Origin: Rhizophagus irregularis
Lineage: Eukaryota > Glomeromycota > Glomeromycetes > Glomerales > Glomeraceae
Direction: 5' to 3'
Length of the DNA stretch: 64,000 bases
NCBI RefSeq assembly: GCF_026210795.1
Contig: NC_089445.1
Location: 868,001 to 932,000 of the forward strand
The notes beneath the pieces are model-generated. The model saw only the letters and a list, made by a program, of their open reading frames with translations. It made no database searches and had not been told where the DNA came from. Within the stretch, counting starts at the first letter, position 1; each line of letters begins with the position of its first letter. Below, piece after piece: positions 6,241 through 57,034 of this stretch. Position numbers and translations under genes: made by a program.

Positions 6241-6488
6241 AAGCCTCATCATTTAGAATGGACAATTGTATTTATTTTTTTATCGTTCGCTTATCACCTG
6301 ATATGTAAATGTCAGAGACTGTGACCACGGATCACGGTCTCAAAATTTTGGCACTTTTTTTATATGAAGTATTGTAAAGTCGTGTAACTTATCAATTGAT
6401 GAGTCAGATCAATCTGTGCGACATCGATTTCTCATATATATCCAGCCTGTGAAAAAAATTTTACCTATCTTTCTTATCTCTCCCTACG

Positions 6489-8679
6489 ATGCCTGTCGTA
6501 ATTCTTGGTACACAAATTACACTTTGGTGCTTTGATTTACGAAATGATTCTAAATTCAAAGTCATTATCGGAGATGGTAATGACATTGACGACTTCAAGG
6601 AAGCTATTAAGGAAAAATGCAAACCGTTTTTTGATGGTTTTGGTTCTTACGCGCTTATATTGTGGAGAGTTAATGCAACTAATGCAACTCAAGTTACTCC
6701 TGATATACTAAATGATAAATTAGTGGATACAGCAAAAACAATTGAAGAGACTTTTAGTAATATCCAAGGAAGTAACATTCGAGTTGTAGTTAGAGCTCCT
6801 GAGAGTCACAACAAGTTTAGTCAACGTGATATAGTGTATTTTTTTTCGTCTTCTCTCGACCACACCGTGTTATATTCGCCAATAATACCGAATACTTACT
6901 TATTCTTGTGCTTTTCTTTCCTGCTTCTTATCGTCAAACCCGCCAAAAAAAAAAATTCGTGTTATCGTAGAGCAACCTGGTGTTGGTAAGTGAGCCATAA
7001 TAAATTAAAACACGAGTGAACACGATATGGCTTGATTTGTTTTCCACAATAATAATGAATATTCTACTATATAATGTTAATTCTTTTCTGAACAGGTCAA
7101 GGAAATTTTCCTGATATAGCGTCTCTGGAGAAAAAATTTGAGAAAGTCGTAAATGAAGTAGGCAGTCTTAGACTTGAAGTGGAACGTGATTTTAGGAAAA
7201 TGCGTAATGTTATAAAGGCATCACTATATTCACCAGGTATTTTATTCATCCAGTCCATCAACCATTTCTGCAACCGCCATTAACGATTTGTTTTTAGGTA
7301 CTTTTACGGAAACTGAGAAGGGTAAATTGGTGAATAAAGGAGATGAAATAGGGTTTCCACTCAACTTGACTACGAGTTCCAAACAAAGAGCGCCTGGAAG
7401 GTTTACCGAATCACCTAACAAGGTCCCAACAGCAAATCCAAAAGAAGAAAAAATACGAGATTACTTTATGAGCGAATGCTTGGCACTAGAAAATAGTTCT
7501 TCAATAAATAACAAGCTTGTTATTAAAGATACACGTTCTTCACCATTGCTAGAAACTCGGAAGCCAGATTTTGTATTCATTCCAAATGATTCACATTTAG
7601 ATCAATTAAATGTTGTTGCCGTTGGTGAGGTAAAGAAGCGAACCGGTGGAGGTTTTAGCAACGCACATATAGGACAAGCGATATCATATGGAGAAAAAAC
7701 ACTCCTACTTCAGCCACGCCGAAACTCCATATTTGTTGTGTTAACTGACTGTCTTATAATTAATGTCTATAGGGTGACTAGGATTAATAATACTAACTTA
7801 CCAAATCCAGTCACCCAATTCAAGTATGAACGTATAGCACCCCAGAATTTAATATTCAAAAACGGTTCTGAAAATACAGGATGGAAATACTTGGTAACAA
7901 TCATGGAAAGCTCTCCGGATGTGTTAGGATGGGTCAAACCATCATTGACATTTGGCAATGAAACTGTAAGCCTGGTTCGATCTATTGGTGTGGGCAGAAC
8001 CAGTGTTGTATATGAAGGAAAACACAATGAAGTATCTATGGCCGTGAAAATGGCAAAGAAGATAGATTATTTGCCTTGTTTTACTAAAGAAAGAATAGTA
8101 TTGGAGAAACTGTCGGAATTGGAATCACCCCATATTCCAAAGATCCTATTTTACAATGATGACGTACTTGTTTTGACTCCACTTGGTGAGAAGATTAATA
8201 ATTTGCGAAAGAAAGATATCAAAGATATCATTACCACCCTCCAAAATGCTCATTCACTTGGAATCATACATAGAGATCTTAGGAAATTTAACCTTTATCG
8301 TAATTTGGATGATTTATGTGAAAATATTCTTATTGTCGATTGGGGTTACAGCGTAAACAACTCTGAAAGCGCCATATTTGCAGGGGCATTGGAATGTATG
8401 CCAGACTATGTCCTGCAATCATTAATCAACGGAGAACAGATTGCTTATGGACCACAAGTTGATTTGACCTGTTTTGTTCGTTCATTCTATTTAATGCTCC
8501 ATAGACCAACGTTAGATAGAGTTCCCTTCGGCAAAGATGATAATATCGAAGAACGAGCACATATGTTATTAAATTTCTGGAAAGATTGTAGACAATCAGA
8601 TGTATGGAATAATATCTATGAGGCGATAGATAACTTACGCTATGATCAGTTAATTCAAGAGCTTGAAAAGTTATTTTAG
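6489..8679 (+). CDS. Crinkler (CRN)-like protein with PD-(D/E)XK nuclease-like and kinase domains
   Basis: Reconstructed as exons 6489-6825, 6971-6985, 7096-7236 and 7298-8679. Phases are consistent and give 624 residues. Residues 9-60 (ITLWCFDL onward, ending LILWRVN) look like the ubiquitin-like CRN header. Residues 250-295 hold RKPDFVFI, GEVKK and a QAISYG helix, matching a PD-(D/E)XK fold (D255, E275, K277, Q291). From about residue 390 there is a protein kinase: glycine loop GVGRTSVVYEG (395-405), K415, HRD (489-491), N496 and DWG in place of DFG (512-514). CRN effectors with nuclease-kinase cores are known in oomycetes, chytrids and Rhizophagus. In known family members the C-terminus acts in a nucleus. 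No secretion signal is seen. The 15-nt second exon and its 145-nt intron (donor GTGATA) are the least certain part. Confidence 0.85.
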
Positions 8680-20096: not shown

Positions 20097-21297
20097 TCAA
20101 TTAATAAAATTATCTGGCAATTTATAAAATGATTTTGGTCTACAAATGCATAAATTGAGTTTATTAATATGAATAAATTGATTCGTTAAAATAACCTTCG
20201 CCATATCAGGTGTTACGTGAGGAAATGCTAATATAAATGGATATTTGGGATCAGTGCAGCTTTCTACAAATATTCTATATCTTTTTAACCATGATTTAAT
20301 TCCAGAAAAAGTTGTTTCGATGGGATTATAATCTGGAGAGTATGGAGGCAAATAAAGTACTTTACATCCCATTTGTTCAATTGATTCTGTCAATTTTTCA
20401 TCGTGATGAAAAATTTGCGTTGTCCATAACAATTACACTATTTTTATTCGGATATTCATTCATTTGAGGTAACTAAAAAAACAAATATAAAATATATCTG
20501 ATATATTTATTTTAAATAAATAAAATAAGTAAATAGATAAGCAACATACCACTTGTGTAAGAATAAATGTCTGAAATCTTTCTTTATTACAACTTCCTTC
20601 TATGAAATCAGCAGCTATAAATCCATCTAATGTCAATGCTGGTAAAATAGTATACTGTTTGCCTCTCACAAAAACAATACTTTTTTCAACCTTTACATTT
20701 TTCATGCTATATCCATAGGCTCTCCATCAATAAAAACAAGCTGTTCTGGTTGAATTCACTTCCTATTTTATACATAAAATGCTATGTAAAAGCTCACTCC
20801 TTTCTTTTGCAGCTTTTGTAACTAGAATAGAAATATTTAATTTAATAATTAAATAATCAAATAAAAATGAATTAAAATCTTATAGAACCTTTTTTCTTGT
20901 TATTCCAAGATGTTTGAGTGTTCTTCATAAAGTAGGTATCGATATGAGCTTGCCAGTTAACCTTTCCATCTCATCATCCATTTCATCAAGATGCCAATCT
21001 TTCTTATCTTTTACAAGTGAAACTAAAATCTGTAATATAAAATGTTCAATCAATAAAATAAATTTGCAATAATGATAAATTAATAATTAAAGAAATTCAT
21101 TTAAATCAACAAGATTTAAAGTTTTTCTTCTTCCTTGACGACCTTTAAATGGATGAGTTACATAACCCCAATGATCGTAAATTCTTCTAATTTTATATAC
21201 AGTAGTAAAGTCTAAGAGCAGTTTCTTTTGCTGAAAATCCATCGAATTGATGGTAAATGATACGCCATCTTATATCATTACTTAAAATCTTTATCAT
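20097..21297 (-). pseudogene. Tc1/mariner (IS630-like) transposase pseudogene
   Basis: On the minus strand from an ATG at 21297: MIKILSNDIRWRIIYHQFDG, then after a frameshift IRRIYDHWGYVTHPFKGRQG (helix-turn-helix region). A segment near 20930-21020 (WHLDEMDDEMERL to RTLKHLGITRKK) follows, and then a deletion with frame change at about 20705-20740. The catalytic part follows: KQYTILPALTLDGFIAADF, an intron 20461-20550 (donor GTATGT), VIVMDNA (second Asp), a frameshift at about 20412, then HHDEKLTESIEQMGCKV and LPPYSPDYNPIETTFSGIK with the third acidic residue. Order and motifs match the DDE_3 superfamily. Several frameshifts mean it is dead. It lies tail to tail with the SAM pseudogene. No clear terminal inverted repeats were found. 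Confidence 0.75.
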
Positions 21298-29877: not shown

Positions 29878-30234
29878 CGCTAATTTATCACATAACTAAT
29901 TATCACATTTTGGGTCAAAAAAATGTAATTTTGTCACACATAAACTTGCATATTTTGATCGGGTCAAAAAAGTAGCACGAGAAGGGTCAAAAAGGTAAAT
30001 TTTTGCCTCTGGAACATGCGAAAACTAATAACAACATTGTTACATCCAAAAAAAGGTTTTATTAAATTGAAGGTTGAACTAAAATACTGTAAATATATAA
30101 CTGATAATATATAAAAGTATCATTTTATTAAATTATTTTATTAAATTATACTAAAGGTTGAACTAAAATACTGTAAATATATAACTGATAATATATAAAA
30201 AATACAAATGAATAGGCTAGTAGTATGATATATA

Positions 30235-30681
30235 TTATATATTGATTTTTCTTCCGTTTACCGGTGGCTTAACCATATTCCCACTAGAAGGATCCATGGA
30301 ACCTAAATGTTTACCCTTATTATCATAAACTTCAATATCATTATGAGTAAAATCCCATTCAAGATATTGTTTATTTTTTCCTGTTCCTCTAGTTTTAGTT
30401 TGACCACGAAAAGAATTCAAACCTTTCCATACTGGACTTGAACCAGGTCCTTTAATTGTTGGTTCTTTAAGTATTGGATTTTTAAGTATTGGACCTAATT
30501 TAGGCAATTTTATTTTTGGAAATCGTCTTGAAAGTGCGTCATTTTCCGTAGGAGCCCTACCATCTATGCATCGACCAAATCCAATTGGACAAGCTTCTTG
30601 ATCATAATTTAGAGGAACGGCGAAGGTTATGGTGGTAAAAACAAGTATTAAGATAAGAATCTTTTCGATAAAATTATTCAT
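30235..30681 (-). CDS. Secreted colicin E3-type ribonuclease-domain protein, left copy
   Basis: Single-exon, 148 residues. Residues 1-21 form a classical signal peptide (MNNFIEK, then a hydrophobic ILILILVFTTITFA core; cleavage likely after A21). Residues 22-90 are a Pro/Lys-rich linker with two Cys (31, 38). Residues 90-148 resemble the C-terminal ribonuclease domain of colicin E3/cloacin DF13: YLEWDFTHNDIEVYD with D110, H113 and E117 in the spacing of the colicin E3 catalytic Asp-His-Glu, then HLGSMDPSSG and a late Arg (R144) at nearly the expected distance. That family cuts 16S rRNA at the decoding site. No translocation or receptor domain and no neighbouring immunity gene are seen. Secretion suggests action outside the hypha. 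Identical at protein level to the copy at 33956-34402. Family assignment is by motif recognition; function is inferred. Confidence 0.85.
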   Translation of the reverse strand: MNNFIEKILILILVFTTITFAVPLNYDQEACPIGFGRCIDGRAPTENDALSRRFPKIKLPKLGPILKNPILKEPTIKGPGSSPVWKGLNSFRGQTKTRGTGKNKQYLEWDFTHNDIEVYDNKGKHLGSMDPSSGNMVKPPVNGRKINI

Positions 30682-30727
30682 CTTTAATTTCAGTTGTTAA
30701 AAAGTAAATTTTATAAGAATAAAATTA

Positions 30728-31045
30728 TACAGCTTTTGAGAATTAGAAATGTGTATTTATTAAAAAACGCAAATAAAAGTATACAGCTTTTGAGAATTAG
30801 AATGTGTATTTATTAAAAAACGCAAATAAAAGTATACAACTTTTAAGAATTAGAATGTGTATTTATTAAAAAACGCAAATAAAAGTATACAACTTTTAAG
30901 AATTAGAATATGTATTTATTAGAAAACGCAAATAAAAGTATACAACTTTTGAGGATTAGAACAATGTGTATTTTTTAAAAAACAAATAAAATTATATAAA
31001 TTTTGAGAATTAGAACAACGTGTATTTATTAAAAAACGCAAGATT
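30728..31045. repeat. Six ~53-bp tandem repeats upstream of the left ribonuclease-like gene
   Basis: Unit: atacarcttttgagaattagaatgtg, then tatttattaaaaaacgcaaataaaag; copies begin about 30730, 30781, 30835, 30888, 30941 and 30996, the last two diverged. They start about 50 nt before the ATG of the minus-strand gene, so they cover its promoter region and could hold repeated regulatory sites. Confidence 0.85.
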
Positions 31046-31359
31046 GATGAACAGTTTCAAAATTGCAAATAAAAATTATTGTCCAATTATTTTAGTCTTT
31101 AAAAGTAATAAAATCAATCTTGTGCAAAATTTGATTTTAAATTTGAAACGCCGTTCTGATCAAAAATTCAGGGTAATTTGCCGATCTAAATTTTCTAACT
31201 ATAGATCAACTGCAGATGCGCTAAAAAAAAAATCTTTAATTACCGTAATTCCTTATTAGGATAGAGCGTTTATATCTATCTTTAAGCATAATTTTTCATG
31301 ATGAATTTCTAAATCAATGTCTCGGTACGACTTCTTTATTAAGCCAAATTTTTAACGGA

Positions 31360-31566
31360 GTTACAATATATGCATTTTTATTTGATACGGATATTATTTA
31401 TAGTGACAGTATTAATCTTAATAGTTCGGCACTCTGTCCTTTATGCAATAGAGATCATAAAGAAAAATCTATATGGAATAACATAAATGATGAATGGGGT
31501 TCTGGTGAATACTATAGAGAACGAACTTATCGTCTCAAGTATACATGTGACCCTAAACTATTTTAA
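31360..31566 (+). pseudogene. Zinc-ribbon fragment with CPLC motif, left arm
   Basis: A frame without an ATG reads VTIYAFLFDTDIIYSDSINL, then SSALCPLCNRDHKEKSIWNN, and ends YRLKYTCDPKLF before a stop. The CPLC pair plus WGSGEYYRERTYRLKYTC resembles the C-terminal half of the window's other zinc-ribbon debris in layout. A truncated copy carried in the palindrome arm; a mirror copy lies at 33073-33279. Confidence 0.45.
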
Positions 31567-33072
31567 AAAAAGTAGTTTCGGAAATAATTTCGGTTTCAAA
31601 AATTTTTAATATAAAAAATATATAAAAATAATTATATTATTTAAGCCCCGGCAGTGATGAGTTTTGGACACAATTTTTAAATTTAAGGTTTTGAACAAGG
31701 TTTTTGGACATAAGAGAATTGTCCAAAACCCTGTCCAATTGCCCAACACTGAATTTTTAAGGGATAGATCGGCACTCAATCGGAAAAATGATCGGCAAGT
31801 TATAATTAATTTTACGGCGGGCTTTATAATTAAGAGATAGATCGGCACTCAATCGGTAAATTATAATTAATTTTACGGGCTTTATAATTAATAAAAAATT
31901 TTTTTTTAGAATCTCTCGTTCCTCACTAACAAACTTTCCCAATAAACAAAAAAAACAGCATACAATAACTTTTTTGACCAAGGAAGGTATTTACTAAACT
32001 CATATTATAGCATATATGCGTGACAAAATATAAGAAAATACAAGAATGTAAACTCTAAAAAACAAAATAAAGTCTTAAAAAATTAAATAAAAACTAAATA
32101 CAACTTAGTTTGGGTCAAAATCGTTTAAAAAAATTTTGTTTAATATTCAAATTTTTGGAAATTTATGGTCGGAATTAGAGATGTGACCCGAAACTACCTC
32201 TCTTAATGGCCCGAAACCGAAACTCCTGAAACCGAAACTGTTTTTATAAAATCCGAAATTAATTTAATAGTACCCGAAATTATATTTGAAGTTATTTGAA
32301 TTTTTCAAGCCAAAATACATTGAAATTTAATAATGCCAATCATCGCAAATTATCGGTAAAAATCTGAATATAGCAATGAATAGTGTCAATCCTAGCCAAA
32401 GTTTGAAGTCGCTAAAGTTTCATGTTACTGACTTTACTATAGAAGAACGCCAGATTCCGGCCAAAAAGTTCCAAATTTTTGAGTATTAAACAAAATTTTT
32501 TTAAACGATTTTGACCCAAACTAAGTTGTATTTAGTTTTTATTTAATTTTTTAAGACTTTATTTTGTTTTTTAGAGTTTACATTCTTGTATTTTCTTATA
32601 TTTTGTCACGCATATATGCTATAATATGAGTTTAGTAAATACCTTCCTTGGTCAAAAAAGTTATTGTATGCTGTTTTTTTTGTTTATTGGGAAAGTTTGT
32701 TAGTGAGGAACGAGAGATTCTAAAAAAAATTTTTTTATTAATTATAAAGCCCGTAAAATTAATTATAATTTACCGATTGAGTGCCGATCTATCCCTTAAT
32801 TATAAAGCCCGCCGTAAAATTAATTATAACTTGCCGATCATTTTTCCGATTGAGTGCCGATCTATCCCTTAAAAATTCAGTGTTGGGCAATTGGACAGTT
32901 TTGGACAGGGTTTTGGACAATTCTCTTATGTCCAAAAACCTTGTTCAAAACCTTAAATTTAAAAATTGTGTCCAAAACTCATCACTGCCGGGGCTTAAAT
33001 AATATAATTATTTTTATATATTTTTTATATTAAAAATTTTTGAAACCGAAATTATTTCCGAAACTACTTTTT

Positions 33073-33279
33073 TTAAAATAGTTTAGGGTCACATGTATAC
33101 TTGAGACGATAAGTTCGTTCTCTATAGTATTCACCAGAACCCCATTCATCATTTATGTTATTCCATATAGATTTTTCTTTATGATCTCTATTGCATAAAG
33201 GACAGAGTGCCGAACTATTAAGATTAATACTGTCACTATAAATAATATCCGTATCAAATAAAAATGCATATATTGTAAC
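33073..33279 (-). pseudogene. Zinc-ribbon fragment with CPLC motif, right arm
   Basis: Mirror copy of the fragment at 31360-31566, same translation in the part checked. No start codon. It is present because the arm was duplicated. Confidence 0.45.
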
Positions 33280-33599
33280 TCCGTTAAAAATTTGGCTTAA
33301 TAAAGAAGTCGTACCGAGACATTGATTTAGAAATTCATCATGAAAAATTATGCTTAAAGATAGATATAAACGCTCTATCCTAATAAGGAATTACGGTAAT
33401 TAAAGATTTTTTTTTAGCGCATCTGCAGTTGATCTATAGTTAGAAAATTTAGATCGGCAAATTACCCTGAATTTTTGATCAGAACGGCGTTTCAAATTTA
33501 AAATCAAATTTTGCACAAGATTGATTTTATTACTTTTAAAGACTAAAATAATTGGACAATAATTTTTATTTGCAATTTTGAAACTGTTCATCAATCTTG

Positions 33600-33920
33600 C
33601 GTTTTTTAATAAATACACGTTGTTCTAATTCTCAAAATTTATATAATTTTATTTGTTTTTTAAAAAATACACATTGTTCTAATCCTCAAAAGTTGTATAC
33701 TTTTATTTGCGTTTTCTAATAAATACATATTCTAATTCTTAAAAGTTGTATACTTTTATTTGCGTTTTTTAATAAATACACATTCTAATTCTTAAAAGTT
33801 GTATACTTTTATTTGCGTTTTTTAATAAATACACATTCTAATTCTCAAAAGCTGTATACTTTTATTTGCGTTTTTTAATAAATACACATTCTAATTCTCA
33901 AAAGCTGTATAATTTTATTC
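33600..33920. repeat. Six ~53-bp tandem repeats upstream of the right ribonuclease-like gene
   Basis: Reverse-complement of the array at 30728-31045, with the same order of diverged and conserved units, ending about 40 nt before the ATG at 33956. Confidence 0.85.
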
Positions 33921-33955
33921 TTATAAAATTTACTTTTTAACAACTGAAATTAAAG

Positions 33956-34402
33956 ATGAATAATTTTATCGAAAAGATTCTTATCTTAATACTTGTTTTT
34001 ACCACCATAACCTTCGCCGTTCCTCTAAATTATGATCAAGAAGCTTGTCCAATTGGATTTGGTCGATGCATAGATGGTAGGGCTCCTACGGAAAATGACG
34101 CACTTTCAAGACGATTTCCAAAAATAAAATTGCCTAAATTAGGTCCAATACTTAAAAATCCAATACTTAAAGAACCAACAATTAAAGGACCTGGTTCAAG
34201 TCCAGTATGGAAAGGTTTGAATTCTTTTCGTGGTCAAACTAAAACTAGAGGAACAGGAAAAAATAAACAATATCTTGAATGGGATTTTACTCATAATGAT
34301 ATTGAAGTTTATGATAATAAGGGTAAACATTTAGGTTCCATGGATCCTTCTAGTGGGAATATGGTTAAGCCACCGGTAAACGGAAGAAAAATCAATATAT
34401 AA
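33956..34402 (+). CDS. Secreted colicin E3-type ribonuclease-domain protein, right copy
   Basis: Same 148-residue protein as the copy at 30235-30681, read rightward, so the two genes diverge from the palindrome centre. Signal peptide 1-21, Pro/Lys-rich linker, then the EWDFTHNDIEVYD active-site segment and HLGSMDPSSG. Mature protein about 127 residues and strongly basic, as expected for an rRNA-binding nuclease. The 3' flank is duplicated as well, so both copies probably share promoter and terminator. Retention of an identical product in both arms fits selection, gene conversion or recency; the sequence alone cannot decide. Confidence 0.85.
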   Translation: MNNFIEKILILILVFTTITFAVPLNYDQEACPIGFGRCIDGRAPTENDALSRRFPKIKLPKLGPILKNPILKEPTIKGPGSSPVWKGLNSFRGQTKTRGTGKNKQYLEWDFTHNDIEVYDNKGKHLGSMDPSSGNMVKPPVNGRKINI

Positions 34403-34763
34403 TATATATCATACTACTAGCCTATTCATTTATTGTATTTTTTTATATATTATCAGTTATATATTTACAGTATTTTAGTTCAACCTTTAGTATAATTTAA
34501 TAAAATAATTTAATAAAATGATACTTTTATATATTATCAGTTATATATTTACAGTATTTTAGTTCAACCTTCAATTTAATAAAACCTTTTTTTGGATGTA
34601 ACAATGTTGTTATTAGTTTTCGCATGTTCCAGAGGCAAAAATTTACCTTTTTGACCCTTCTCGTGCTACTTTTTTGACCCGATCAAAATATGCAAGTTTA
34701 TGTGTGACAAAATTACATTTTTTTGACCCAAAATGTGATAATTAGTTATGTGATAAATTAGCG

Positions 34764-38632: not shown

Positions 38633-39184
38633 AATTTGTTAAAGGATAAAAAAAAAACAATACAATAAGGTAAAAGACGTTCTTTTATACCTTTATTTAT
38701 TTCCACAATTAAAATATTATGATTATTAATAATATTTTTTTTTTCCTATAATTAGATTAAATGTAATGATTACGATTTTTTTTTAATGATTTAGATCAAA
38801 GTATAATGATATGGCAGAGAAAAAAAAATCAGTTCGTGGGAAGAAAGGGGTCTTTATATATATTTTTTTTTTGTCATATGAGGACCGATAGGTCTGTCGA
38901 AAGTAACGAAATAGTCTATTAAATAAGCTTTTTTTGATTGAATTTTTTTTTCCTTTTTTTTCATGCCGATAAGTCTATTGAAAATAACGAAATAGTCTAT
39001 TGAAGTATAAGCTTTTTTTTGATTCAAATAAAGGAACTTATATTGATTTAAATACAATAAATACAATAAATTGATAGTAACCTAATATGGTCAACAATGT
39101 CAATTATCAATCATACTAATATATCCGTTCATCGAAGAACCGGAAATTCATTTTTAATAAAATTTTTTTATATTATTATTTACA

Positions 39185-42100
39185 ATGACGAGAAAATACC
39201 GAAGAACAAAAGCTGTCTTTGTAAAGAAATCCTATAATTTTAAACAGAAAACATCAAATAAAGTTCCGTGTCATTGCAATAAATGTAAAGGTAACATGGT
39301 TGATCCACGTACAAAAAATAGTCATAGTTTAAAAAGGGATATTAGACCAAGAGGAGTTATTGAAGAAATTATAGATTTAAATCAAGTTTCATCTGATGAC
39401 CTAAACCAAGATACATCGGTAGACCTCTTGAATGATCCAATGGAAATAGAATCACATAATTCAGATGATGGTCATCATGAACCTATTGTTGATGAGGAAA
39501 ATTATTCGTTTCTTCCCAAAAAATCGAAATCATCAAAAGCCAAATCGAAAGATAAACGAAAACATATCGGTAGTGGAAATTCCAAGAATGTATCATACCC
39601 TATTGTTGTTATTGAACAAAGTATTTCAGATGATGATACTAGTGATGCTGATGATGAAGAAAACGATCAAGTTGATAATGACTTTGATCCTATCGAAGAA
39701 ATACCAAATGAATCTTCATCCGGCTGGTTTGACGCACCGGAAAATACATACGGTGATGATCCAGAAGCCTCCTTCATTGATTTTACTGAAGACTTTCATT
39801 GGATTGTTTTATGGATCTTATTATATCAAGAGAGATATAAGTTATCCGATGTCACTACCGATTCTTTAGTCAAATTTTTTAGATATCTTTTGGTTCTTTT
39901 GGATGCAAACACGTACAATTCTTTTCCTACATCTTTGTATATGGCACGTAAAAAACTTGGCGTCTGTGCTCATATTGTCAAATTCGCATCGTGTGAAAAG
40001 TGTTGCAAATTGTATAATGTAACAGAAGTATCAACTAACGACCCTTACCAAGTTCCAGCCACAATTCATTGTACCTATGTAGATTTTCCGGATCATCCGA
40101 TGGCAAATCAAAGAAAAAAGTGCAATGCTACACTTGCTAAGAAAGTTCCGGTTACTAACGGAACAATCTATCGACCTTCTTTAACGTTCCCTACTGTTAG
40201 TTTAAAACACCAATTACAATTAATGTATAATCGAAAAGGATTTGAGAAATTATGTAGAAAATGGGCGGACCGTAACGATTCTCAATTTTTGAATGATATT
40301 TATGACGGAAAGATCTGGAAAACCTTTCAGGATCATCGTCAAAATATACCATTTTTCCGGAAAGATGTCTCAGACCGCCACTTAGGCATCATGTTAAATA
40401 TCGACTGGTTCCAACCATTCGATAATTCAACTTATAGTATAGGAGCTCTATATGGTGTAATATGTAACCTGCCTCGAAATGAAAGATTCAAGCCATCAAA
40501 TATTTTGACAATGGCTTTAATTCCGGGGCCAAATGAGCCTAGTTTACATCAACTAAACCATTATATAGCTCCCATCATCGATCAATTAATCGAGTTATGG
40601 AATGGGATTGAACTATCGAAAACATACGAAAGCTCTACCGGAAAATCTATTCGAGCCGCAGTAATATGCTGCTCATGTGATATTCCAGCCGCGAGAAAAC
40701 TCTGCGGTCATATCTCTGCGCGAGTGGCTTGTCATAGATGCTTAAAAAAGGCTCAATATGATGATCGAAATCAACCGAATTTTGGCGGATTTGATGATAT
40801 TGATGAATGGTTTGTCGAAAGAGATATCAACCAGGTTCGAAGGGATGCGCGAGAATGGTTGAATTGCAATACTAAAGATGCTAGAAATAGTCACGTCCAT
40901 AATACTTTAGTACGGTGGTCAGAAATGTATCGACTTCCGTACTTTGATTCAGTGCGATTTCTCACGTGGATCCAATGCATTGTTTGTTCTTGGGTATTGC
41001 TAAGTGGATCGTGACCAGACTGTGGATCGAGGAGGGCCGATTGACACAAAAAGATTTAGAAACAATGCAAAAAAGGGCAAATGCAATAAAAGTTCCAGCA
41101 GATATCGGTAGAATTCCCTACAAAATTGCTACAGGTGAAGGCTTTTCAAGGTTCGCCGCTGATCAATGGAAGACTTTTATCTTAATTTATGCCACTTCCA
41201 TAACATGGGATCTGCTTCAAGAATCGGATAAATTGATACTCGCCAATTTTGTCCGTGCATGCAATATTCTTGTATGCAGATCTATAACAACGAATGGGTT
41301 AGAAGAAGCTCATAAAAATCTTCTAGAAGTGGCAAAGCTCATTGAAGAAAATTACGGCGCAGAAAAAATTACGCCGAATTTACATTTATGCTTACATATT
41401 TGCCATTGTGCGTTAGACTATGGACCATTATACGCGTTCTGGTGTTTCAGTTACGAACGCATGAACGGTCTATTAGGTAATTCCAGATTTCCGAACTTAT
41501 CAATATAATTAAATCAATTTATTAAATAGTCTATATTTATAGGATCGTATCATAGCAGTAATAGAAGAATCGAACCAGAATTATTAAAAACCATTCAATT
41601 CAACTCTCTTCTTGATCAGTTTTCTTCATGCGCCCAAGACCATCAACATTTATCGACTTGTATCACACTAATTACACCGAAAGAAACTACCGGCAGTCTT
41701 GTAATTCATGATGAAATTAATGGAATAGATTACCGGGAATTTTTATCAATGTCTAGAAACGTGGAAGAAATGGCCGGAACAGGTTCGGAACCTTTTCCAG
41801 GTACTTTTCTTAATCCTAAAAGGATAGACACCAACCTTTCAAAAGAAGTATTAGATTTGTTGGTTGAATATTACCGCAATGCCTATGGAAAAGATTTCGC
41901 AGCACTATCAGATATCCATGCTGCTCCTTCTGCTATACCGGTATTACCAAAAGTGAACACTTATGGACGACTAAAAATTGGATCCGAAGTTTTTGGGTCA
42001 ATGTATTCTAAAAGGCACGTCACATCGGCCAAAATATTATCCCAATTTCTCCATGATAATACTAAAGATACTTATCCCGGTATTGTTCAATTTTATTTTG

Positions 42101-51561: not shown

Positions 51562-54500
51562 ACACCAATCTGTATCGGGTGTATTACAGGGATTTCACCC
51601 TCCTAATAGTGCGATACTTAATAATAATAGTTCTAATAAATTTTCTTCTCCTTCTTTTTCTTCTCCTCTTATTAACTTTGGACAAATCAATGTTAATGGT
51701 TTGTGTTCCCCCGTCCGACAATTGCATTTGTTAAATTATTTTTTGCATTCTTCCTTTGGCGTTTTATCTTTAAACGATACTCGCCTTACTTCTTCTGGTG
51801 CTAAATTTATTTATCAAATTGAACATCCCTTATATAATTTTAAGTCCTATTGGGCTCCTTCCCCTTCTAATTCACGACCACATGATGGTGTTGGTCTTTT
51901 ACTTCGTCATCCTTTACATAAACATGTTCAGAAGATTGATCCCTGGAAAGGTCGTCTTTTAAAATTAGATCTTTTTTTCATCAGACAAAAATTTCTATTA
52001 TCTCTGTTTATATTCCTCCCTATCATTCTATTCATTATAAAGAACGAGATGCTATTTTTGCACAACTTAATTTATGGCTTGATAAAGCCCGTTCTAATAA
52101 CTATCACGTAGTCGTCCTTGGTGATTTTAATGCAGATGAAATTTCACATTCACATCTTCCTCAACATCATTTGAAAATTTTACGATCACTCTCTTCTCGA
52201 TATTTTACGGATCACCAATCCCATATTTCATCAACTTCAGGTCCTAGTCCTACCTTTTATCACCAGAATGGTTCTTTAAGACTTGATTATATCTGGTCAT
52301 CCCCTGGATTCCCTGCTCCTGGTCTTTTTTCTCAAGTTGAAACTTGTCCTAAGCTGAATGATAATCAATTTACTGATCACCGTGTACTTTTAACGGCCTT
52401 TGATTTTAGCTCATGTTTCGCTATTTTATCCAAAGCTCGATTAAAGCAGAAAAGCGAACAACGCACCATCTTTCGTTACAAAAATTTGAAAGATGACACT
52501 TGGGACAAATTTTCCAATGAAGTAAACTCACGTCTTGAGTTATACTTGACCACACATCATCCTTCAGTATCTTCACTTTCAGTTCTTTCATTGGACAAAC
52601 TTTGGCACGCTCTTAAACGTTCTATTCTTGGTGGTGCCATTGATTCTCTACCATTCCAACATGTATCCAATACTCATCACCATAAATATCCTCCTGAACT
52701 TACCATGCTTATTGCTGTCAACAAATTCTTGGATAGATTATTGTTTAAATTGACCACATCTAGGCCTAGTCGTCCTGCTCAAATTTCACAAATGATTAAT
52801 TCCTTACCAACCCAATTAATCCTCCTTAAGTCTCTTTTAACAGATTATACTATACCTTCTTATAGTACAACACCGCTTCCTACTTTTGTTAAATTTTTAC
52901 GTTCACAAAAAGCTTTGGTCTCAGCTTATCTTTCCACACAATTTCATCAGCATCGTGTAGATTCCATTGAATATTATACTGCTCTTAGAGATGAGCATTT
53001 TTCTACATCCCCGGGCTCTTTTATTTCTTCAGCCCTATCAGTGGAACATCGTTCTATTGTCCTTGATAGAGTTTTGGTTGTTATTGACTCCAAACCCACA
53101 TTACTTACTGATCCTTCAGATATCAAACAAGCTGCTATTAAACACTTCCAATCGGTTGTCACTCCTCCTTTGGTCCAGTATTCTTCTACGGATTCATTTC
53201 CTCCACGATGGCAACGAGCTTATACTCCTCTTCCAGATATTGATTCGTCCTTATATAACTTGGTTATGTCTCCTATTCTGGCCGATGAATGGAAAAACAC
53301 TCTCAATTCTATGCCTAATAATAAAGCCTCTGGTCCTTCCAAGATCTCTTATGAGATGCTCAAACATTTAACTGGAGAAACTTTCAATTTGTCCCTTATA
53401 TTAGCCAATGCTTGTCTCATTCATGGAGATATTCCTGCCGATTGGCGTGAAGCGCTTGTTTATCCCATTCCAAAGCCTCATGAATTTGACGCCCAATTGA
53501 AGAATACGCGACCTATCACTCTATTGGAAACAGTACGCAAATGTGTGGTTAAGGTCGTTACAACTCGACTATCAAAAATCCTGGCTGACAATCAAGTGCT
53601 CCAAGGTGGTAACTTTGCCGGATTACCAGGCGGCTCCACCGACATTCCTATTAAGATGCTTGATGCTATTATTCATCAACGACGCTTTGATAAAAGCGAT
53701 GACCAAGAACTATGGGTTGTTTCTCAGGACATTTCTAAGGCCTTTGACTCAATTGATTTGAACATGCTTAGACTGGCTTTAATCCGTCTGCATATTCCGT
53801 CTTTATTGATCAAATTTATCATTAACCTTTTTACAAGGCGTAATAATAAAATTATTACACATCATGGTGATACTTCTGGATATAGAGTTAGAATTGGTAT
53901 TGACCAAGGTGAAATCATCTCTCCACTATTATGGGTTATATACTTGGATCCATTACTTACCACACTTAATCGAGAAGCCTGTGATCCCTTTATTTTGAAA
54001 TCTTCTGCATTATTGGATTATTCTCCAATTGAATATGAACAACATAATCTTCTTATTTCACATATTACATTTATGGATGACTCTACTTTGATTGCCTCAT
54101 CTAAACAAGGAATTGAAGATCGCCTTTCCATTACTGCTGAATTTTACACTTTAAATAATACTCAAGCAAATTCAGCAAAATATATCCTTCTTTCTTCTGA
54201 ACAATTTTCTCAAACTATTGTATTTGATCTATTCCCATCTTCTTTAAATACGATTCATACCCTTACTTTAAAGGCGTTAGCCTTATCTGCATCTTTTCGG
54301 TTTTTAGGTGTTTGGTTTAACCTTTCGGCTTCTTCTCGTTTCGTTCATAACCAAACTGTTTCCATGGTCAAAGACATGGCCGCTCTACTCAGTCCTAAAA
54401 AACTTTTAGCACAACATATAGCTTATCTTTATAATGTTGTCCTACTTCCGCGGCTAGAATTTCGCCTACAAACCACATTATTTGCAGAATCCACCATTAA

Positions 54501-55590
54501 TCGCATGGTTTCTCCAATGCTTTCTCTTATTCGTCAGAAGGCTGGTTTGGCCTCAGTCACTCCTCTTTCCACACTCTTCACACTGTTGCCTTTCTCTCTT
54601 CAACATGCGTTTGGTCGATTTCTGTCATCTCATGTGGCTTCATGGCAGAAAATTTTTTCTCACCCTTCATATAAGCTCTTTGCTAATTATATGATTACTT
54701 ATCTCCAAGGTTTTTTGGACTGTGATGTCTGCCCCTCTATTATTGACCTGGAACCATGGTCCCACACCTTTTCTTTGCGAACACATTCTTTATTTAATTC
54801 TTTATTGTTCTCTTCTCGTTTAAATATCACGTGGTCTTTACTGTTCCGACCTCCGAGGAAAGATTTACGTCCGGCGATTCCACTCCGGTCTATTTTACCA
54901 AAAGATTTATATACTTCCATGAAAAATGTTCGGATAAATTTCTGCACTCATTTTCTTGCTCAATTGATTACACCGTGTGGCTCTCGACTTCTCTCATGGA
55001 AAGATTTACACTTTCTTAAACGAGTATCGAACAAAGGATCTGTGCCTGCTTGGTTTAATTATTTGTTCAATCTTATTGTTATTCCTAATTCGCCTTCTTT
55101 TTTTATTTTACAACGATTTAGAATTCCTAATTCTCATACTTTAGCTTCTATTTCTTTTATAGATATTAGTCGAAATTATTGGTTTAACCCTCAATGGGCT
55201 ATTTCTTTTAATCGCAATACTAACTCTTTCCTCGTTGGCCGTGTGATTACTACCTATCCTGCTCCACGTAATGAAGCTCTTATTTCACATTGGATTGCAT
55301 CATCGGTTGATGATTTACTTTCTGAATTTACTGCATGCCAAGGCTGTGCCTCTGCTCTCCCGCGATCCTCTACCTCTAAGACTTTGATCAAACGATGTCC
55401 CTCTGAAGGATGTTTCTCTTATGTTCCGTTATCAAGTTTGATCCGTTATCCTACGAAACCTCGTACTTATATACATGTGGATACTCGTTCAGTTTCACTT
55501 TCTGCCTCGTTAGGCTATGCCAAATCTCTTTTACTATTTCATCTTTTTGCTCCGATTCGCTTACCTTCTACGAATGAACTAGTCGCTTAG
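51554..55590 (+). CDS. LINE ORF2: APE-type endonuclease and reverse transcriptase, one frameshift
   Basis: ATG 51554 overlaps the ORF1 stop by 8 nt (atgattga), which suggests reinitiation after ORF1. The endonuclease begins near FGQINVNGL (about 51680). A 1-nt shift in a T run at about 51970-51977 moves translation into the frame with SVYIPPYHS, GDFNADE (about 52120) and TDHRVLL (about 52375), the C-terminal endonuclease motifs. The reverse transcriptase spans about 53270-54330: NKASGPSKIS, RPITLLETVRK, QDISKAFDSID, GIDQGEIISPLLW, and the catalytic box FMDDST (about 54070), where FMDD replaces the usual YADD or FADD. A conserved LGVWF follows. The frame ends 28 nt before the RNase H frame. 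Confidence 0.85.
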
Positions 55591-55618
55591 GATCTCTGAT
55601 ATCCAACTTCCCTCTTCG

Positions 55619-57034
55619 GTGTCTACACTTTATATTGATGGTTCCTTCCTTTCTCCTCCTAGTCATCCGGCATCCTTGATGGCTTATGCATGGACTGCTA
55701 TAGATCCTGATGGATTTATTTTGGAATCCCATTATAATATCGTCTCTTCCATTTTTCCTTCTGCTTTACGTTCAGAAGTTTTTGCTTTATTGCACGGATT
55801 GGACTCCCTTCCTCGGAATTCAAAGATTACTGTCGCCACTGATTGTGCTCAATTACTTTCTTTATGGTCTTTATATGTAGATGCTCCTTTTATTCCCAGA
55901 ATGCTTAAAGAATCCAACCACCTTTTGTGGTCCTCCATACGCACTATTATGTTGCAAAAGAATCTGGATGTTACCTTGATCAAGGTTCCTGCTCATGCTG
56001 ACGACCCTTTGAATAATCATGTGGATGCATTAGCCAAAGCCGCTCATACTGACTCACTTCTTTCTTTTTGTCCACCACCGGAATTGATGGCTCCTTGCAT
56101 TTTACAATTTAATTCCTTACCTGTGGATATGAATATCCGGAAATTTATTAGAGATATTTTTGACGCCAAAAGTCTTTTAACTCTTGCTGTATTACCAAGA
56201 TTTAATTCCTACTCTTCAACTTCTGATATTGATTGGACTTGCACCATATTTTGTCTCAATAACAATAAGCATTTTGTCTCTCATCGGAATGGCCGCTCCG
56301 AGTTTTGTGGTTTCCGTATCAAGCTACTTTTAGATATGCTTCCAACGCTTACAACTCTTCAGAGACGAAAGCCTCATCTTTATAATCCAAGTTGGCTTTG
56401 TCCTCAATGTAATTCCTTCCCTGAGACTTTAGACCACTTGTGGACTTGTCCTTATATTTTACCTGAATTTAGCCCTTTGCAATCTTTTAAAACATTACTA
56501 TTGGCTCTTCGGACTACTTATCTTGATAATTTCCTTTCCGCGTCATCTTTAATCTCTTTACCGGACTCTTTTGCTGCTGAATTTATGGCTCTTAATTGTT
56601 GGGATTGTGACCCTCCTTCAATTTCCTGCCTGCGACTCACAAGAGGACTTATACCGAAATTTTTGACAGAATTTCTTGGAACTTATTTTTCTTCACCTAC
56701 CATATGGTCTATCTTGGATACACCTTTGCACGACTTTCATTTTGACCTTTATGTTCAAATCTGGTTGTGCCGATCCATTTTCTTTCATCATTGGGAATTA
56801 GCTCAAGGCATTACAAAAAAAATGAAATCGTCAGCTCTTGGGCCTTCTTCTACTCTTCGACCTTCCTCTAACATTCCTCTTGACTCTTCGACACCTTCCT
56901 TGGCGACAGCTTCCTTGGATTCCTGGGTTTCTTGGGTTTCCTCTTCTATAATCCGTGGGGGATCTTGGATTTCGCATTTGGATTTTTGGCGCCGCTTAAC
57001 AGTTCAGCCTCTACTTAGGATCTCTTTTTGGTAA
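55619..57034 (+). CDS. LINE RNase H and C-terminal zinc motif
   Basis: About 471 residues. RNase H signature: YIDGS (Asp near the start), SALRSEVFALLHGL (Glu), VATDCAQLL (Asp) and HADDPLNNHVDALAKAA (last Asp). A later CPQCNSFPETLDHLWTC is the usual zinc motif at LINE ORF2 C-termini. The frame is open upstream to about 55578 and overlaps the ORF2 end in another phase, so it was probably joined to ORF2 before a 1-nt indel near 55560-55590. The GTG at 55619 is only the first possible start after that shift. Confidence 0.85.
   Translation: MSTLYIDGSFLSPPSHPASLMAYAWTAIDPDGFILESHYNIVSSIFPSALRSEVFALLHGLDSLPRNSKITVATDCAQLLSLWSLYVDAPFIPRMLKESNHLLWSSIRTIMLQKNLDVTLIKVPAHADDPLNNHVDALAKAAHTDSLLSFCPPPELMAPCILQFNSLPVDMNIRKFIRDIFDAKSLLTLAVLPRFNSYSSTSDIDWTCTIFCLNNNKHFVSHRNGRSEFCGFRIKLLLDMLPTLTTLQRRKPHLYNPSWLCPQCNSFPETLDHLWTCPYILPEFSPLQSFKTLLLALRTTYLDNFLSASSLISLPDSFAAEFMALNCWDCDPPSISCLRLTRGLIPKFLTEFLGTYFSSPTIWSILDTPLHDFHFDLYVQIWLCRSIFFHHWELAQGITKKMKSSALGPSSTLRPSSNIPLDSSTPSLATASLDSWVSWVSSSIIRGGSWISHLDFWRRLTVQPLLRISFW

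Follow-up and report, generated by a model that had tools for sequence, protein, structure and literature searches.

Does an arbuscular mycorrhizal (AM) fungus make and export a bacterial type of ribosome-cutting toxin, and if so against whose ribosomes? The question is raised by a locus of Rhizophagus irregularis lying in a 64,000-nucleotide stretch (the window; positions 868001-932000 of contig C17, NC_089445.1), which we analysed together with a genome of 146.7 Mb in 32 contigs. The window carries two open reading frames (ORFs) of 148 codons, for which the original prediction proposed a secreted protein with a colicin E3-type ribonuclease domain taken from bacteria. Our reading, to which we assign a probability of roughly 0.6, is that the ORF encodes a secreted colicin E3-type ribosome-inactivating ribonuclease that was acquired from a bacterium and is aimed at non-self ribosomes.

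Profile search against Pfam gave a significant match of the window protein to PF09000, the colicin E3 ribonuclease family (score 45.5 bits, cut-off 22; E 9.9e-12), and a sequence search of the Protein Data Bank (PDB) matched colicin E3 chains with a best E of 6.1e-7. The predicted model of the domain shows the colicin E3 fold, and in the alignment D110, H113, E117, H125 and R144 fall on D55, H58, E62, H71 and R90 of colicin E3; the proposed Asp-His-Glu set thus pairs one to one with colicin E3 residues, and the residue numbers first given for it and for R144 are correct in the ORF translation. These results confirm, at the level of sequence and predicted structure, that the small protein ends in a colicin E3-type ribonuclease domain, for which databases already carry a name. 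PF09000 is the sole Pfam match of the protein up to E 10, which agrees with the claim that the colicin import domains are absent: no receptor-binding, translocation or secretion-system domain appeared in that scan, nor, at the sequence level, did the Microbial RNase (T1/F1-like) family.

Several of these residues matter in colicin E3. In whole-protein numbering, which we infer to be offset by 455 from that of the domain, D510, H513 and E517 are essential and mutation of R495, R497, E515 or R545 causes a significant loss of activity (Walker 2004, as quoted in an extract of PMC4905994). The counterpart of R545, R144, is encoded in the ORF, and by our reading of the alignment R495 and R497 would correspond to K96 and R98. 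K96, D110, H113, D115, E117, H125 and R144 are conserved in all eight relatives compared. In eight fungal sequences 33 of the 70 domain positions are invariant, and D110, H113, E117, H125 and R144 are all five among them (P 0.02, shared ancestry ignored). The first histidine is not conserved in every family member and the second, numbered H72, is the one highlighted (Zhang et al. 2012, extract of PMC3482391); it appears to be H71 by our count and hence H125 of the window protein.

Upstream of the domain the protein has features that suggest export. A hydrophobic run at residues 8-20 (mean Kyte-Doolittle 2.85) and a helix at residues 2-20 of the predicted model make an N-terminal signal peptide probable, the linker at 54-79 deserves the description Pro/Lys-rich (6 Lys and 6 Pro among 26 residues), and the part downstream of the dibasic pair RR 52-53 comprises 95 residues with an isoelectric point of 10.1 and no Cys. 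A similarity search returned 25 proteins, of which P0001-P0014 share, by eye, a common fungal N-terminus (8 of the 14 carry the name R. irregularis or R. diaphanus) and the remaining 11, bacterial ones among them, lack it. A profile search of proteins gave 279 matches, and the 120 listed include P0103, filed as Cytotoxic of Gigaspora margarita, with a hydrophobic N-terminus, a KR site and a PF09000 domain (E 2.5e-10). Compared with an intact copy on contig C18 (P0003) and with P0004 and P0005 of R. diaphanus, residues 1-50 are identical at 46-48 of 50 positions and the domain at 46-56 of 69. Of 15 fungal models, 11 have a K/R-R pair between signal and domain; it lies at 52-53 in P0001-P0005 and P0009 and elsewhere in P0008, P0010, P0012, P0013 and P0103.

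A long form of the protein, P0014, has 18 Cys ahead of its last 70 residues. Its predicted model is weak (mean predicted local distance difference test, pLDDT, 70.7; predicted template modelling score, pTM, 0.33), and in Foldseek colicin E3 takes ranks 1-5 with no other match below E 1.7. The long-form Cys-rich region has no Pfam match above cut-off (Conotoxin in P0013 at E 7.8e-4 and CC domain in P0014 at E 0.03 both fall under it). Because this region recurs without the toxin domain, at five places on C17, C24 and C27 (E 4.8e-12 to 0.006, 34-40% identity) and in P0027, we read the architecture as a bacterial tip that was probably joined to a fungal secreted scaffold.

A pattern-based scan of 84,980 prokaryote species found 28 loci, in Bacillus, Nocardia, Microcoleus, Shewanella, Paraburkholderia, a Rickettsia endosymbiont and others, and the nearest bacterial sequences reach 71% identity across about 70 residues. 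Trees built from the 72 available columns are poorly resolved. A 42-row tree, whose bootstrap had not settled, places the 9 fungal rows on one side of a branch with support of 45/0, and these rows form with two Nocardia, Desulfovibrio and Microcoleus a set of 13 with support of 98/85. A quick tree of 137 rows groups 10 Rhizophagus-type rows (Shimodaira-Hasegawa-like approximate likelihood ratio test, SH-aLRT, 98) that do not adjoin Nocardia, and puts Gigaspora separately within an open 7-member set (85) that also holds Nocardia and Microcoleus; in a tree of 55 chosen rows the Rhizophagus-type group has support of 85/81 and its grouping with Gigaspora is not rejected (approximately unbiased test, AU, 0.273). 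The nesting among bacterial relatives, together with the fungal relatives in R. diaphanus and Gigaspora records, supports the acquisition that had been predicted; the domain almost certainly moved from bacteria to fungi, in one or two events; we take the direction to be from bacterium to fungus because the bacterial hosts are broad. Bacterial contamination is rejected, as the copies sit in contigs of 4.3 and 4.5 Mb and relatives occur under other Rhizophagus records and in Gigaspora. We saw no evidence of a viral route: two phage proteins lead in a viral protein library, at E 8.8e-6 (named colicin E3-like) and E 0.045, and viral contigs gave six weak matches only.

The domain had been described as present twice. 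There are indeed two ORFs in the window, without a single DNA difference across 447 bases, but they are not independent genes: a single local inverted duplication seems to have produced the pair, because the 3275-bp stretch around a related C18 locus contains no inverted repeat of at least 60 bases. An alignment of the two arms that flank the spacer shows 10 substitutions and 16 gap columns, and a sequencing fold-back artefact is judged unlikely in view of that divergence. The outermost 129 bp of the arm are a dispersed repeat that occurs with 95-96% identity at two C4 sites and one C16 site. Genome-wide there are at least five copies, a lower bound as only the best-scoring candidates of the search were evaluated, and at least three of them are on C18. 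One of the latter, C18:2980910-2981338, is intact and 87% identical to the window copy, its protein being by eye the same as P0003, filed as R. irregularis RhiirA1_534761; C18:1712981-1713408 is broken, as is C18:3127705-3128207 (L057), which has the longer Cys-rich form. By eye, P0002 (R. irregularis, UniProt) matches the window protein through residue 140. P0026, also a public R. irregularis model, seems to have been predicted around the stops of a broken copy such as C18:3127705-3128207.

The bacterial toxins are accompanied by likely protectors. By eye, the ORFs that follow the toxin in 26 bacterial loci fall into three types (CPWC, 14; GWP, 8; Bacillus type, 4, one of which resembles the others only loosely). 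Two CPWC-type proteins were scanned and both belong to DUF6980 (PF22400; E 1.2e-19 and 2.1e-26), the one GWP-type protein scanned has no Pfam family and the one Bacillus-type protein scanned has none above cut-off; Imm45, with a C-terminal W, is listed for this toxin (Zhang et al., extract of PMC3482391). Downstream of the Bacillus-type toxins L023, L025 and L026 lies a protein of about 190 amino acids (aa), a candidate immunity protein. DUF6980 was not found anywhere in the R. irregularis genome by a search that recovered it from 3/3 toxin-carrying bacterial genomes and that an intron-split gene could escape, so the earlier statement that no immunity gene is nearby holds and, for this family, extends genome-wide. 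GWP-type and Bacillus-type partners gave no genome match with one query protein each and no control, and the absence of Cloacin_immun (PF03513) matches in the genome is uninformative, its control being empty too. We also considered as an immunity gene the 105-aa ORF found in both arms of the repeat, whose CPLC motif recalls the CPWC of DUF6980, and rejected it: Pfam gives only zf-Di19 at E 0.13 and no DUF6980, and part of the ORF belongs to a dispersed repeat with copies on several contigs.

We propose that a Rhizophagus ancestor acquired the 70-residue toxin tip from a bacterium, minus its immunity gene and the colicin import domains, and that the tip ended up downstream of a fungal signal peptide and Cys-rich region. 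Co-translational entry into the endoplasmic reticulum (ER) would shield the fungus's own ribosomes, a Kex2-type protease may cut at the dibasic 52-53 and free a basic 95-residue toxin, and outside, on reaching a foreign cytoplasm, this toxin would cleave the decoding site of small-subunit rRNA. Colicin E3 cleaves 16S rRNA between A1493 and G1494 (extract of PMC9223846), and a review mentions a few reports of its cutting 18S rRNA in isolated eukaryotic ribosomes (extract of PMC4639596). Because bacterial and eukaryotic ribosomes are both possible targets, the fungus would have to exclude the enzyme from its own cytosol; a decoding-site pattern for its own 18S rRNA had 0 matches in the genome, from which rDNA may be missing. 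Fungi do have secreted antimicrobial RNases (extracts of PMC11323725 and PMC9438471). As target we put bacteria living around or within the hyphae first, a choice we make tentatively and at somewhat under even odds; the ribosomes of plants, other eukaryotes or fungi could also be hit. The more far-reaching proposal that two AM lineages, Rhizophagus and Gigaspora, weaponised a bacterial decoding-site RNase against hyphosphere bacteria or endobacteria, by means of a fungal export region and dibasic release from a pro-form, and with no need of an immunity gene because it is made into the ER, seems to us less likely than not; if it held, we would know of no earlier colicin E3-type ribosome cleaver in a eukaryote.

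Several observations count against an active, exported toxin. No import module can be recognised in the protein, R98 (R42 of colicin E3, where it is important) is conserved in 1/8 relatives, and the PF09000 match begins only at position 26 of the 80 in the profile. The K/R-R site is missing from 4 of the 15 fungal models (P0006, P0007, P0011 and P0014; the first two skip the dibasic stretch), and in P0008, P0010 and P0012 it is followed directly by Pro, which should hinder Kex2. Other such observations would suit a decaying transfer, in which an acquired toxin fragment is copied and drifts along with repeats after its function was lost: two of the at least five genomic copies are broken, the inverted repeat has a dispersed repeat at its outer ends, four public gene models are without R144, and no purifying selection is seen between the two intact gene types, whose differences comprise 21 nonsynonymous changes and 2 synonymous ones. 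The ratio of nonsynonymous (dN, 0.065) to synonymous divergence (dS, 0.022) is 2.98, with a bootstrap 95% range of 1.01-7.76 that leaves out resamples without a synonymous change and reflects a single pair of gene types; other tests, all with transition bias uncorrected, are weaker, with a Fisher P of 0.19 and a binomial P of 0.10, and P 0.047 for the domain alone (14 against 0). At most, these figures hint at diversifying change, which can occur in toxins. Between the loci of the intact types, identity in 100-base bins is 91-99% over the ORF and 73-100% upstream, and past 34500 it drops to 48-65% in global alignment, where local search aligns further. Decay is nevertheless quite unlikely in our view, as the frames are open, every named active-site residue is kept in R. 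irregularis, R. diaphanus and Gigaspora, and the five listed above sit at invariant domain positions.

The models without R144 (P0002, P0006, P0007 and P0009) end in altered tails, and two possible GT..AG introns starting at 34376 reproduce those of P0002 and P0006. Splicing of this kind could turn the product into a secreted binder of RNA or ribosomes instead of a killer; but P0001, P0003, P0004 and P0005 have the complete tail and the arginine is conserved, also in Gigaspora, and we regard such a catalytically altered protein as very improbable. A further reading is that of a host-cell effector, delivered into the plant cell to cut or bind the host 18S decoding site and so tune translation or cell death during colonisation. 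It would suit a genus of obligate root symbionts, but we know of no plant-entry signal in the protein, and a general ribotoxin, if active, would damage the living host. The rare reports of 18S cleavage by colicin E3 in isolated eukaryotic ribosomes (PMC4639596) and the RNase-like effectors with other folds that work in plants (extract of PMC6464244) speak for it; we consider it unlikely and favour a secreted ribonuclease aimed at non-self ribosomes. The features of the locus and of the rest of the window are collected in Table 1.

Table 1. Positions of the toxin gene pair, the surrounding repeat and other features (window numbering).
Feature	Position	Strand	Remarks
ORF, 148 aa + stop	33956..34402	+	probable signal peptide about 1-22, short Cys-containing region, RR 52-53, Pro/Lys linker 54-79, Cytotoxic domain about 80-148
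Colicin E3-type ribonuclease domain, residues 80-148	34193..34399	+	D110, H113, E117, H125, R144
Second ORF copy	30235..30681	-	DNA same as 33956..34402 copy
Possible intron, 95 bp	34376..34470	+	GTAAAC...ACAG; would swap last 8 residues including R144
Alternative shorter intron, 81 bp	34376..34456	+	
Inverted repeat, left arm, 2298 bp	29878..32175	+	
Spacer between arms, 278 bp	32176..32453	.	
Inverted repeat, right arm, 2310 bp	32454..34763	-	
105-aa ORF, left arm	31249..31566	+	CPLC motif
105-aa ORF, right arm	33073..33390	-	CPLC motif
Crinkler-type effector gene	6453..8679	+	Crinkler N-terminal PF20147 (E 2.1e-9), then DUF6826, kinase-like domain
DDE_3 transposase fragment	20097..20432	-	
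tnp2-type transposase	39161..41014	+	PF02992
LINE-type element	51940..57034	+	endonuclease, reverse transcriptase, RNase H ORFs; GC richer than flanks

Little is understood at the protein level of the ways in which mycorrhizal fungi influence the bacteria that live on and in their hyphae, and a secreted ribosome cleaver of bacterial type would be a concrete and testable candidate, being a short protein with a known cleavage site. It would also raise the question of how a eukaryote holds a ribotoxin whose bacterial owners keep an adjoining immunity gene. The words colicin, cytotoxic and ribonuclease are absent from the extract of a survey of 44 early fungi (PMC11291939), and we recognised no report on a colicin E3-type domain in a fungus among the matches listed in a search of open-licence PMC papers.

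Among known systems, the colicin E3 ribonuclease domain (PF09000; PDB 1e44, 2b5u) is of the same family as the window domain; pyocin S6 and cloacin DF13 are of the same kind as colicin E3 (for cloacin DF13, an extract of PMC5536347, in which no word starting with fung occurs). Unlike colicin E3, the window gene lies on a eukaryotic chromosome, with a probable fungal signal peptide and a dibasic site, and its protein has no recognised receptor-binding or translocation domain; no immunity gene was found for it. The closest bacterial sequences are the SAR2788-family and other PF09000 toxins of Bacillus, Nocardia, Microcoleus and others described above, which, in contrast to the window gene, have other N-termini and an immunity-like ORF directly downstream. 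CdiA-CT of Enterobacter cloacae (PDB 4ntq), which is delivered through contact-dependent inhibition, is not among the PDB sequence matches of the window protein. Zt6, CfRibo1/2 and the RALPHs belong to other RNase families. These are likewise small secreted fungal ribonucleases or ribonuclease-like proteins, some of them antimicrobial as far as extracts of their descriptions go, whereas the window protein matches PF09000 only.

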